Assembly (NCBI GenBank): GCA_021817455.1
Contig: JAKAUW010000082.1
Coordinates: forward strand, 1 to 42,903
Direction of reading: 5' to 3'
DNA from: Thermoplasmata archaeon
GTDB lineage: Archaea > Thermoplasmatota > Thermoplasmata > Thermoplasmatales > Thermoplasmataceae
DNA length: 42,903 bases
Both the position numbers and the translations under genes were made by a program. The notes below the pieces were generated by a model. It was not told the origin of the DNA. It worked only from the letters and a program-made list of their open reading frames with translations, and did not search any database. Shown here piece by piece: positions 21,726 to 28,538 of the stretch; position 1 is the first letter of the stretch, and the number at the start of each line of letters is the position of its first letter.

Positions 21726-22946
21726 ATGGCTTACATCAAAATAGTCGACGGACAGGGTATAGATGTGCCAAGCAATCCTACCATAGGTTACATTGAAGGA
21801 GACGGAATTGGCCCTGACATTACAAAATCATCAATTGCTGTTATTAACGCAGCACTGGAAATCGCATACAACGGCGAGAAGAACATTGTATGGGAGAAGA
21901 TCCTGGCAGGTGAAGAGGCAATGGAAACCACGGGAAAACATCTCCCGCAGGAATCCCTTGACCAGCTCAAGAAGTGCATTGTATCCATCAAGGGGCCGCT
22001 CACAACACCAATTGGCCAGGGGTTCAGGAGCCTTAATGTAACATTGAGGCAGTACTTTGACCTCTATGCAAATATCAGGCCTGTGAAATTCTTCCCCGGT
22101 GTACCTTCTCCTGTAAAGGCACCAGAGAAAATGAACATGGTAGTCTTCAGGGAAAACACTGAGGACCTTTATGTTGGAATAGAGTGGAAATACGACTCTC
22201 CGGAAGCACACATGGTGAGGAAATTCCTTTCAGATAATTTTGAGATCTCACTCACGGACGACACCGGAATAGGCGTCAAGCCTATCAGCAGGTTCAAATC
22301 ACAGAGGCTTGTGAGAAAGGCTATTGAATATGCCATCAAGAACAAAAGAAAGAATGTAACCCTTGTCCACAAGGGCAATATCATGAAGTACACGGAAGGT
22401 GCATTCAAGGAATGGGGATATGAGCTTGCTGCAAGCGAGTTCAAGGACACCACAGTTACGGAAGAGGAATACAATAAATCCCCGGATTCATATGATGGTA
22501 AGGTCATTGTCAAGGACAGGATAGCAGACAACATGTTCCAGCAGGTTCTTACCAGGACAGAGGACTATGATGTCCTAGCGACCACAAACCTGAATGGCGA
22601 CTATATTTCTGATGCACTGGCAGCACAGGTCGGCGGGCTTGGCATTGCTCCGGGGGGAAATGTAGGAGATGTCTACGCTATATTCGAGGCGGTCCACGGC
22701 ACTGCACCCAAATATGCAGGCCTTGATGTTGCGAACCCCACGTCCCTCATGCTTTCTGGTGAAATGATGCTCAGGCACCTTGGCTGGATCGAGGCTGCTG
22801 AAATCCTCGAAAGCGCCATAATGTCTGCCTACAGGGACCAGAAAGTAACACAGGACCTTGCAAGGATACTCAACATAAAGCCACTCAAATGCTCTGAATT
22901 CGGAGACGAAGTAATAAAGAGAATGAGGGCTAAGAAACCAGAGTAG
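21726..22946 (+). CDS. icd: isocitrate dehydrogenase (NADP+)
   Basis: A 406-residue TCA-cycle enzyme converting isocitrate to 2-oxoglutarate. Substrate residues are in FRSLNVTLRQYFDLYANIRP (Ser, Asn, Arg, Arg) and VFRENTEDLYVGIEW. NVTLVHKGNIMKYTEGAF and the Asp-containing VKDRIADNMFQQ line the metal site. The coenzyme loop HGTAPKYAG with the Lys-Tyr pair is the NADP-specific form seen in E. coli Icd. Full length for the family. ATG 21726 follows a TATA box by about 50 bases. Confidence 0.95.
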   Translation: MAYIKIVDGQGIDVPSNPTIGYIEGDGIGPDITKSSIAVINAALEIAYNGEKNIVWEKILAGEEAMETTGKHLPQESLDQLKKCIVSIKGPLTTPIGQGFRSLNVTLRQYFDLYANIRPVKFFPGVPSPVKAPEKMNMVVFRENTEDLYVGIEWKYDSPEAHMVRKFLSDNFEISLTDDTGIGVKPISRFKSQRLVRKAIEYAIKNKRKNVTLVHKGNIMKYTEGAFKEWGYELAASEFKDTTVTEEEYNKSPDSYDGKVIVKDRIADNMFQQVLTRTEDYDVLATTNLNGDYISDALAAQVGGLGIAPGGNVGDVYAIFEAVHGTAPKYAGLDVANPTSLMLSGEMMLRHLGWIEAAEILESAIMSAYRDQKVTQDLARILNIKPLKCSEFGDEVIKRMRAKKPE

Positions 22947-22964: not shown

Positions 22965-24332
22965 TTATTTTTTCAGCTTTATAATCCTTGTTCGTGAAAA
23001 CTCCTCTCGGAGCTCAACAATTTTTTCGTTTTGTCCCTCAGGTTGCCCGCATATCCTGTGCCAGAGCCCGCTATACTGGCCTGGCGCCTCATTTATAAGC
23101 ACTTCTGCAAAATCCAGCTTTTCTGATGCACTTGTTGCAAGATCAATGTCAGAGGTAAACACAGATGCCTGTGAATGGGTGCTGAATCTGTTCGCAGCCT
23201 TTATGGCGGCATCCATGGAACTGACCTGTTCAAGGCATACAACCGGAATGCAGGGATAACCCATGAGAAGAGGAGAATCAGGGGGAAGGTATTCTATAAC
23301 TGTTGGTGAAAAGAAGTTTCCTGAGATGTCGCCTCCGTAAGCCAGGAATGCTCCTTTTCCCAAGGCTTCTTCAAGATGCCTGGAAACTTCTGAAGCATAG
23401 GAACCGTCTGGCAATGGCCCTAAGTCTGTCTCTTCCTCCACGGCGTTTCCAACACTTATTCTGGAGGCCAGCTCCACGAGCCTGTTCCTGAAATATTCAT
23501 AGGAATCTTCCCTCAGTATAATCTTCCTTGCAGCGGCATAGCCACCGTTGTAACTTGTAAAGGCGGATTGGGCAACACATTCTGCAGCGGCGTCAAGGTC
23601 AGAGTCATCCCAGACGATCACCGGTGAAGCTGACTTGCCAGAAATCATGGCTCTAATGCGTGTGGCTCCTCCCATGACTTTCTTGAATTCAGAATGAGAG
23701 CCTAGAAAGACGACCTCACCTATATGCTCGCTTTTCAATATTTTCTTTAGGGGCTTAGATTCATTCTTGAGAAAGAGGAGCTGGAGTGTGTTTTTTGGGA
23801 GCCCAGCTGAGTCCACTATCTTCTTGAGTTCCTCAAATGGCCCCGGGGCGAGGGGAGGAGGTACACATACGACAGAATTGCCGCTGGAAATTGCAGCAGC
23901 AATCACCTTTGCAGTGTGGGAGAAATCCTCAACTGGGGATGCCGAGATAAGGACTGTTCCCAGCGGATACCTCCTGTAAAATGACAGGAGTGATGTGTCA
24001 AAAGGACCCGTGGGCAATGCTGTGTAGTTGGCCATGGATGCGGAAAGAAGGCTTGATGCAGCCATGAACTCCTGGGCAGCACGTGAGACATCATCCCTTG
24101 AGCTTTTAAGTGCTATGCCAGTTTCGACTGAAATGGATCTGGAAATCGAGTCCAGGAAATTGCCTGTTGATAGGGAAATTGAAGCCAGGCCCCTTGCAAG
24201 ATCCGCCCCTGAAAGCGAAGCAAGTTCTGCACTGGCAACCTTTCCCGCATCCAGGATTCTTAAAGATTCTGAAAGTGTGTTTTCACTGACTTCACGCAAA
24301 ACATTTCCAGTGGATTTGTCCCGTATTTCCAT
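22965..24332 (-). CDS. ALDH-superfamily protein lacking catalytic residues (pseudoenzyme)
   Basis: A 455-residue protein with the full aldehyde-dehydrogenase layout: N-terminal helical part, an NAD-domain stretch (AAAISSGNSVVCVPPPLAPGP), the ISGKSASPVIVWDDSDLD segment and a C-terminal oligomerisation region. The active site is gone. The PWNFP motif with its oxyanion Asn reads SPVEDF (E135). The Lys that binds NAD ribose is missing (VPPP, 157-160). The general-base Glu of LELGGK is replaced (MISGK, 229-233). The nucleophile Cys motif GQxC is GGYA (263-266), with no Cys nearby. The EExFGP loop is MGYPCIP. The frame is intact, so this is not a decayed gene. It follows the MoaE-like gene by 94 bases on the same strand. 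Function is unknown; a binding or structural role is an inference. Confidence 0.75.
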   Translation of the reverse strand: MEIRDKSTGNVLREVSENTLSESLRILDAGKVASAELASLSGADLARGLASISLSTGNFLDSISRSISVETGIALKSSRDDVSRAAQEFMAASSLLSASMANYTALPTGPFDTSLLSFYRRYPLGTVLISASPVEDFSHTAKVIAAAISSGNSVVCVPPPLAPGPFEELKKIVDSAGLPKNTLQLLFLKNESKPLKKILKSEHIGEVVFLGSHSEFKKVMGGATRIRAMISGKSASPVIVWDDSDLDAAAECVAQSAFTSYNGGYAAARKIILREDSYEYFRNRLVELASRISVGNAVEEETDLGPLPDGSYASEVSRHLEEALGKGAFLAYGGDISGNFFSPTVIEYLPPDSPLLMGYPCIPVVCLEQVSSMDAAIKAANRFSTHSQASVFTSDIDLATSASEKLDFAEVLINEAPGQYSGLWHRICGQPEGQNEKIVELREEFSRTRIIKLKK

Positions 24333-24426: not shown

Positions 24427-24819
24427 CTATAGATCCTGGCCATCCTTTACTTCGAATTTCCAGACAGGCAGTTCAGCATTCATCTCGTCCACAATGAACT
24501 TGCACGCAGAAAGCGCATCCTCCACTCTCCTTGCAGCGACCGTAACAAGGAGGGCACATTCACCAACAGGGATTTTTCCCACTCTCTGCACAACCTTGAC
24601 ATCAGAAATGTGAAACCTTTCTGTTACATCTTTCTGGATTCTTTCCATGAGTTCTGCGGCAAGGTCCTCATAAGTCTCAAAAACAACCGATCTTACGTCG
24701 GAAGCATCCGAGAACTTAGTGCTTCGGACCATCGCAGTGATTACGTTCCTTGCTTCCGGTTCACAGGATTCCGCCTCCTGGGAAACATCGATCTTTTTGC
24801 TCACGATTCTGATACTCAT
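24427..24819 (-). CDS. divergent MoaE-like protein
   Basis: A 130-residue homologue of the large subunit of molybdopterin synthase, which carries sulfur from MoaD onto the pterin precursor. The family backbone shows at VRSVVFETYEDLAAELM (43-58), VKVVQRVGKIPVGECALLV (75-92), ALSACKFIVDEM (102-113) and LPVWKFE (117-123). It departs at key places: the catalytic Lys of E. coli MoaE (K119) is Asn114, although the second Lys (K126) is kept as Lys121. The usual HRxG is QRVG, and the GAxxxFxGxVR loop is altered. ATG 24819 has a TATA-like ATTAAATAT about 30 bases ahead; an in-frame upstream ATG adds 19 residues. Active MoaE is possible but doubtful. Confidence 0.7.
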   Translation of the reverse strand: MSIRIVSKKIDVSQEAESCEPEARNVITAMVRSTKFSDASDVRSVVFETYEDLAAELMERIQKDVTERFHISDVKVVQRVGKIPVGECALLVTVAARRVEDALSACKFIVDEMNAELPVWKFEVKDGQDL

Positions 24820-27686: not shown

Positions 27687-28538
27687 GTGCTTCATGACCT
27701 GATAACATCTTCTTTCCCAGAATTTAAGATAAATGGGCTGCAAGTGATTACTGAAGGCTGGGACAATCTGGCGGTGAAAGCGAACGGCGACAACATATTC
27801 AGGTTTCCAGGGGTGCAGGAGGGCAAGGAGAGACTTCGGCGTGAAATAAGGCTGCTATGGAAATTTAATGATTTTCCTGTTCGTGTTCCCAAGTATCTCA
27901 ATATTTCTAAGGGGAGCCATTTTTTTGCGGGTTACGGTCCCATCCCCGGAGTGAGTCTGGGCACTGCGTCGGATCTCAAGCCTCATCTTCTGAATGATAT
28001 GGTCAGAGATCTTCACAAGCCGAGAACATTCAATGCCGAATGCCTTAAGGATGTCGGATTGCCTGTTTACACTTGTGAAAACTGGATTGACAGGCAGAGA
28101 AAAGTTGTGGGTAATTTCGAAGCGGGGCTTTCCCCATATATTTAAAAGAATCAGTTCATTGAGACCCGTAATCTCCCGGGGTCGACAATGAACGGAATCC
28201 CCGAAAGCTCTATCAATCTCGTGCATGCTGACATGTTTCGCGGAAATGTCATAATCAATTCTTCTAAGGATAGAATAGTGGGCATAGTAGACTGGGAGGA
28301 CGCCCTTGTTGCGTACATGGCCCTTGATATTGCCGCACTTGGCCTGGACTTTGGATCCGAGGGCACTGATAGGTTGCTGGATGCCTTATCCCTTGGCATA
28401 GACGACCCGGGATTGGGGGACAGAGTCAGATTTTAACAGAAAATAGAGTTCCTTTGCCATGCTGAACACCTTGTCAGGACAGGTAAGATTGAACAGGCAA
28501 GCAAATTGCTCAAGTTATGGACGAAGAATATCAGATAA
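27687..28538 (+). pseudogene. aminoglycoside-phosphotransferase-like kinase, two in-frame stops
   Basis: One reading frame of 284 codons from GTG 27687 to TAA 28536-28538 shows a complete choline/aminoglycoside-kinase-like protein but for TAA codons at 28143-28145 and 28434-28436. Landmarks appear on both sides. The first part has NLAVKANGDNIFRFPG (nucleotide-binding strand) and a lobe-linking region. The second has LVHADMFRGNVII, with the catalytic Asp and the metal-binding Asn, and IVGIVDWEDA with the metal-binding Asp. The third, after the second TAA, is a helical tail (HAEHLVRTGKIEQASKLLKL). There is no frameshift. Substrate is unknown; position behind a Drr-type exporter could suggest drug or metabolite modification. 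It ends 12 bases from the convergent sufR. Confidence 0.75.

Follow-up and report, generated by a model that had tools for sequence, protein, structure and literature searches.

An aldehyde dehydrogenase-fold protein with replaced catalytic residues, conserved next to icd in a family of Thermoplasmatales archaea

The window (the whole stretch of 42,903 nucleotides analysed here, contig JAKAUW010000082.1 of the Thermoplasmata archaeon assembly GCA_021817455.1) encodes on its reverse strand a protein of the aldehyde dehydrogenase (ALDH) superfamily in which the residues that define the active site have been replaced. The gene lies between icd, with which it is convergent, and a gene for a paralogue of MoaE, the large subunit of molybdopterin synthase, here designated MoaE2. 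The residue numbers of the reference enzyme used below (Asn169, Lys192, Glu268, Cys302, Glu399, and Phe401) follow the ALDH2 convention. The features of the locus are as follows:

21726..22946, + strand: icd, convergent with the ALDH-like gene and the anchor by which the locus is recognised in the different genera (synteny)
22965..24332, − strand: putative ALDH-fold pseudoenzyme, 455 aa (Pfam Aldedh; 455-aa orthologues in G003, G005, and G004; AlphaFold/Foldseek)
23055..23096, − strand: INEAPGxYSGxWHR, a novel C-terminal motif at the position of FGGxKxSGxGREG (13 residues of a 15-residue window invariant in four orthologues)
23250..23258, − strand: Tyr359-Pro360-Cys361 replacing the E-I-F of EIFGP (Glu399 to Tyr359, Phe401 to Cys361)
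23472..23495, − strand: [YF]xxNRxxE helix, Y280-E287 (genus-weighted conservation over the lost copies of 11 genera: N 0.97, R 0.80, E 0.95)
23538..23540, − strand: Tyr265 at the position of the nucleophilic Cys302 (GQxC); Tyr in G000, G003, and G004, Cys in G005 (alignment)
23640..23642, − strand: Ser231 at the position of the general base Glu268 (MELG to ISGK); S/S/A/G across four orthologues (alignment)
23862..23864, − strand: Val157 at the position of the NAD-ribose Lys192 (KPxS to VPPP); V/V/I/V across four orthologues (alignment)
23931..23933, − strand: Val134 at the position of the oxyanion Asn169; V/V/R/L across four orthologues (alignment)
24117..24125, − strand: E70-T71-G72, an E-x-G motif found in nearly all members that have lost the catalytic set (genus-weighted conservation E 0.91, G 0.98; alignment)
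24427..24819, − strand: MoaE2, upstream MoaE paralogue that lacks the catalytic Lys (K119 to N) as well as the His of SxHR and the C-terminal tail (Pfam MoaE, E 9.7e-18; alignment)

The open reading frame starts with ATG and runs through 455 codons without internal stops. Its sole Pfam hit is Aldedh (PF00171; E 2.1e-54, residues 2-417), and its best sequence matches among solved structures are ALDHs, the nearest being 8hap and 5mz5. The AlphaFold model, built from an alignment of 11 sequences, reached a mean pLDDT of 77.9 and a pTM of 0.79, the final 37 residues falling below a pLDDT of 50. Foldseek matched this model to ALDH structures with TM scores of about 0.76-0.81, 5mz5 and 3pqa from M. 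jannaschii being the nearest folds. Protein scans of viral contigs revealed no relatives; DNA-pattern scans returned a few distant ALDHs, which served only to deepen the alignment used for the model. The initial annotation had described a gene intact in length, fold, and reading frame, and these data agree with it.

The catalytic positions were read from an alignment with motif-intact homologues. Asn, Lys, Glu, and Cys are all absent from the window protein, as had been proposed from the sequence, and the loss of the EExFGP loop was likewise borne out; the SGxGREG stretch is also substituted. A cysteine that could stand in for the missing nucleophile was sought among the four orthologues of the genus described below, and no pocket Cys was found to be conserved across them, C366 being the only Cys invariant in all four. 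The nearest curated model is the lactaldehyde dehydrogenase NF040648, against which the protein scores 161 bits, compared with a cut-off of 650 bits. Judged by these substitutions, the protein presumably lacks dehydrogenase activity, and it probably lacks canonical NAD binding as well.

Syntenic orthologues were found in three congeners (G003, G005, and G004, with 81%, 57%, and 55% identity, respectively), in each case between a convergent icd and a MoaE-like gene. Each of them has exactly 455 aa and no stops, and the existence of three independent orthologues of the same length at the same locus rules out chance or sequencing error as the origin of the substitutions. Asn, Lys, and Glu are missing in all four species. 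The Cys position holds Tyr in three of the four, while G005 retains a Cys (GGSCSAARK) without Asn, Lys, or Glu, an observation that counts against reading the protein as a pseudoenzyme. For the pair formed by the window's genome (G000) and G003, which is the one pair among the four orthologues whose dS is not near saturation, dN/dS is 0.16 (dN 0.104, dS 0.657), in comparison with 0.04 for icd in the same pair. In other pairs of copies without the catalytic set and with measurable dS, the ratio ranges from 0.02 to 0.24, and the dN of the ALDH-like protein is several times above that of neighbouring genes. The gene is thus constrained, yet it evolves faster than its neighbours. The proposal of a conserved pseudoenzyme rather than a decaying gene, for which a search for orthologues and a dN/dS estimate had been suggested as checks, is therefore supported at the sequence level: the four species agree in the position of the gene, in its length of exactly 455 aa, and in the losses, and dN/dS is 0.16.

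Both flanks of icd were then read in 51 genomes of the family. At 39 of these 51 loci, in 12 genera, icd faces a convergent ALDH-like gene; the genomes of g6 lack it. The full catalytic set is kept in only four copies (G001 and G002, from the window's genus, G013, and G089), and it is lost in the remaining 35, which belong to 11 genera and differ in the residues lost. Among the latter, which include the copy of G021, 33 are full-length open frames and the other two are cut only by contig ends. Of the 80 loci returned by a contig scan with icd as the query, only two, L169 and L170, came from this family. The g2 protein encoded in L170 is still modelled as an ALDH fold, with moderate confidence (pLDDT 70.0, TM 0.63-0.74). 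As to the concern that the window might hold a lone degenerate copy among intact orthologues, orthologues with intact GQNC and MELG motifs do exist in the four genomes named, but the copy is not alone, since degeneration extends to 34 further loci across 11 genera. The coupling of the ALDH-like gene to icd was rejected as functional evidence, because the two genes are convergent and purA and hutU also take part in the shared synteny.

To our knowledge, the pseudoenzymes described so far go back, as a rule, to one ancient loss each. In this family, the catalytic machinery has probably been lost many separate times. Unrooted parsimony requires at least three changes, and a single clade comprising all the lost copies tested was rejected (AU p=0.010). 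A clade joining the window group with G001 and G002 was not rejected (AU p=0.226), which allows, but does not prove, a loss within the window's genus. A hand count that assumes irreversible loss and takes the icd+purA tree at face value gives about eight independent losses, a figure that gene replacement and long-branch attraction could reduce. At one locus, in related and partly cultured archaea, ALDHs range from intact copies through partly stripped ones to copies stripped completely, and the losses recur. Comparing them opens the questions of which function arose first and what is retained of an enzyme once its chemistry is given up.

What stays conserved lies largely outside the old pocket. 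The ETG and [YF]xxNRxxE helices are located away from the active site, and the INEAPGxYSGxWHR stretch ranks with the best-conserved 15-residue windows of the four orthologues. Each conservation P value given here comes from one circular-shift test per group and is uncorrected for the number of groups. In the window's group, conservation is lower in the pocket than elsewhere in the protein (0.45 vs 0.62, P=0.022), with the six core pocket columns varying between species, and it is higher in the NRxxE helix than elsewhere (0.92 vs 0.59, P=0.020). The motif-intact ALDHs show the reverse for the pocket (0.86 vs 0.58, P<0.003). The NR(xxE) signature is present in every intact icd-locus copy of the family, in nearly all lost copies, and also in g14, and it was absent from the sampled ALDHs of other families or subfamilies. 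This distribution indicates that the lost copies descend from one ALDH, and that a constraint outside the pocket survived the loss of catalysis.

The upstream neighbour shows a similar replacement of an essential residue. MoaE2 is encoded on the same strand, with 94 bp between it and the start codon of the ALDH-like gene. Its own start is likely at MSIR..., since G003 carries a stop inside the longer frame, which extends to 24876 in the window. MoaE2 resembles MoaE in its Pfam match and differs from it in lacking the Lys that corresponds to K119 of E. coli and K240 of Haloferax, a residue that cannot be replaced without abolishing function (PMC4443979). The position is occupied by Asn in all six g1 species and by Ala in G016. 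MoaE2 evolves under strong purifying selection (dN/dS 0.024-0.10), and each of the 13 genomes of g1, g7, and g12 carries it alongside another MoaE copy; in the window's genome, a second MoaE with the essential Lys is encoded elsewhere (G000:C24). MoaE2 is also found in G001 and G002, next to a motif-intact ALDH, so the change in MoaE is not a consequence of the loss in the ALDH. Going by adjacency only, MoaE2 and the ALDH-like protein may have a joint function; the upstream gene varies by genus (MoaE2, MqnD, and others).

The reading that we favour, and that we consider probable, is that the gene encodes a catalytically dead ALDH that has been retained for a non-catalytic function by virtue of a second ancestral role. 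Since the catalytic machinery was lost while the gene stayed intact under selection, its job is probably structural or binding rather than chemical. The locus would originally have held an ordinary ALDH dependent on NAD(P), of which four genomes keep intact copies there, and this ancestor may have combined catalysis with a second role, structural or in partner binding. Different genera would then have dropped catalysis repeatedly, with retention of the fold and of the ETG and [YF]xxNRxxE helices. In the window's lineage, the old active site and the cofactor-ribose site would have been freed from constraint, while the new INEAPGxYSGxWHR motif is held fixed at the position of the old FGGxKxSG loop. 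The release of the pocket and the fixation of the C-terminal motif suggest that the protein acts via its surface, possibly as an oligomeric scaffold or a binding partner, for which MoaE2 is a candidate in g1, g7, and g12. The computations show the homology, the lost residues, the common locus, the purifying selection, and which constraint was retained; the absence of activity and of canonical NAD binding, the second role, the oligomer, any partner, and hence a binding, scaffold, or regulatory role are inferred. A pseudoenzyme has been defined by the lack of conserved catalytic motifs (PMC10211241), and the window protein lacks them while being under purifying selection.

Other readings deserve consideration. 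The protein may be a remodelled enzyme, that is, an ALDH fold whose pocket was rebuilt for a different reaction or for ligand sensing. For g12, this agrees with a pocket that keeps Lys and Glu, bears a fixed TGHHLQR in place of the Cys loop, and shows a dN/dS of 0.02-0.05 within close species. In g2, g15, and g17, the changed pocket is also conserved above the rest (P 0.011-0.023; marginally in g12, P 0.063), and these lineages may have kept a ligand, so that their proteins may bind it or catalyse something else; a single mechanism need not fit all lineages. For the window's group, however, the significantly lower conservation of the pocket and the variation of its six core columns make remodelling rather unlikely. 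Residual aldehyde chemistry is very improbable. Catalytic residues of pseudoenzymes can have migrated (PMC10211241), and a thiohemiacetal or esterase reaction could be imagined either on the Cys at 265 in G005 or on the Cys at 361, at the Phe401 position, which G000, G003, and G004 have instead; nevertheless, neither Cys occurs throughout the four orthologues, and the Glu, Lys, and Asn that would act with it are gone.

ALDHs normally oligomerise, and the retained fold would also suit an inactive subunit that stabilises or regulates an active ALDH in a mixed oligomer. Motif-intact ALDHs are indeed encoded in G000 (on contig C89) and, as a second copy, in G032. However, only relatives with about 30-36% identity to the motif-intact family were found in G003, G004, and G005, so that no close active paralogue offers itself as the partner of the dead copy there. 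The C89 copy, moreover, groups with another family of the order with 99-100% support, for which reason a link to it was set aside. A mixed oligomer is hence improbable, and slow decay of a functionless gene seems more doubtful still. The dN is high relative to the neighbours, and some members have drifted below Pfam detection (for instance, that of G017, E 0.08), both of which favour decay; but all 33 untruncated degenerate copies are full-length open frames, the dN/dS values stay far under 1, a helix has hardly varied over 11 genera, and a new motif has been fixed. Returning to the dead ALDH retained for binding, a bolder version can be offered only tentatively: a family-wide protein, whose extreme members are recognisable as ALDHs only by the locus and the intermediates, would have lost dehydrogenase activity about eight or more times while keeping a pre-existing non-catalytic interaction, and in three genera would work with a dead MoaE paralogue. 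If true, the ALDH-like protein and the MoaE paralogue would form a two-protein module made entirely of former enzymes.

The protein is homologous to the ALDH superfamily over its full length, has the same fold, and derives from a motif-intact ALDH encoded at this locus; it differs in that the Asn, Lys, Glu, and Cys are missing, as are EIFGP and SGxGREG. A close parallel is the mammalian ALDH16A1, a pseudoenzyme with protein partners that also has the ALDH fold and none of the catalytic residues (PMC10650815). ALDH16A1 is eukaryotic and, as far as known, belongs to a different ALDH branch, whereas the present protein is archaeal and linked to one locus where loss occurred more than once. The omega and eta ALDH lens crystallins likewise illustrate the recruitment of an ALDH for a structural role; these are dual-function, moonlighting ALDHs (PMC10650815), in contrast to a protein whose whole active site has been stripped. 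No account of this protein was found in the literature searched, mostly outside subscription journals. The family-wide repeated loss, the identity of the retained parts, and the inactive-looking MoaE neighbour are new. Annotation calls for caution, since the name aldehyde dehydrogenase, which some members would receive, and the name 'hypothetical protein', which others would, are each likely to mislead.

Several further observations were made in these genomes. The icd-linked ALDH-like protein of g12 (L038 8800-10215, L130, L131, L132, and L039) has lost Cys and Asn and kept Lys and Glu, and from its sequence it could have a new activity. The motif-intact ALDH of contig C89 (L106 6378-7763), which groups with family f3 of the order, was either acquired horizontally or lies on a contaminant contig. 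In g5, another ALDH-like protein in which every catalytic residue is substituted is encoded away from icd (L041 823-2220 and L042 7569-8894), where it adjoins a cluster of respiratory-complex-like genes. Finally, a phosphotransferase-like gene of the window appears to be split in two frames (27687-28145 and 28188-28436, + strand) and is pseudogene-like; an unsplit relative of 294 aa is encoded near icd in G017 (L151 3011-3895).
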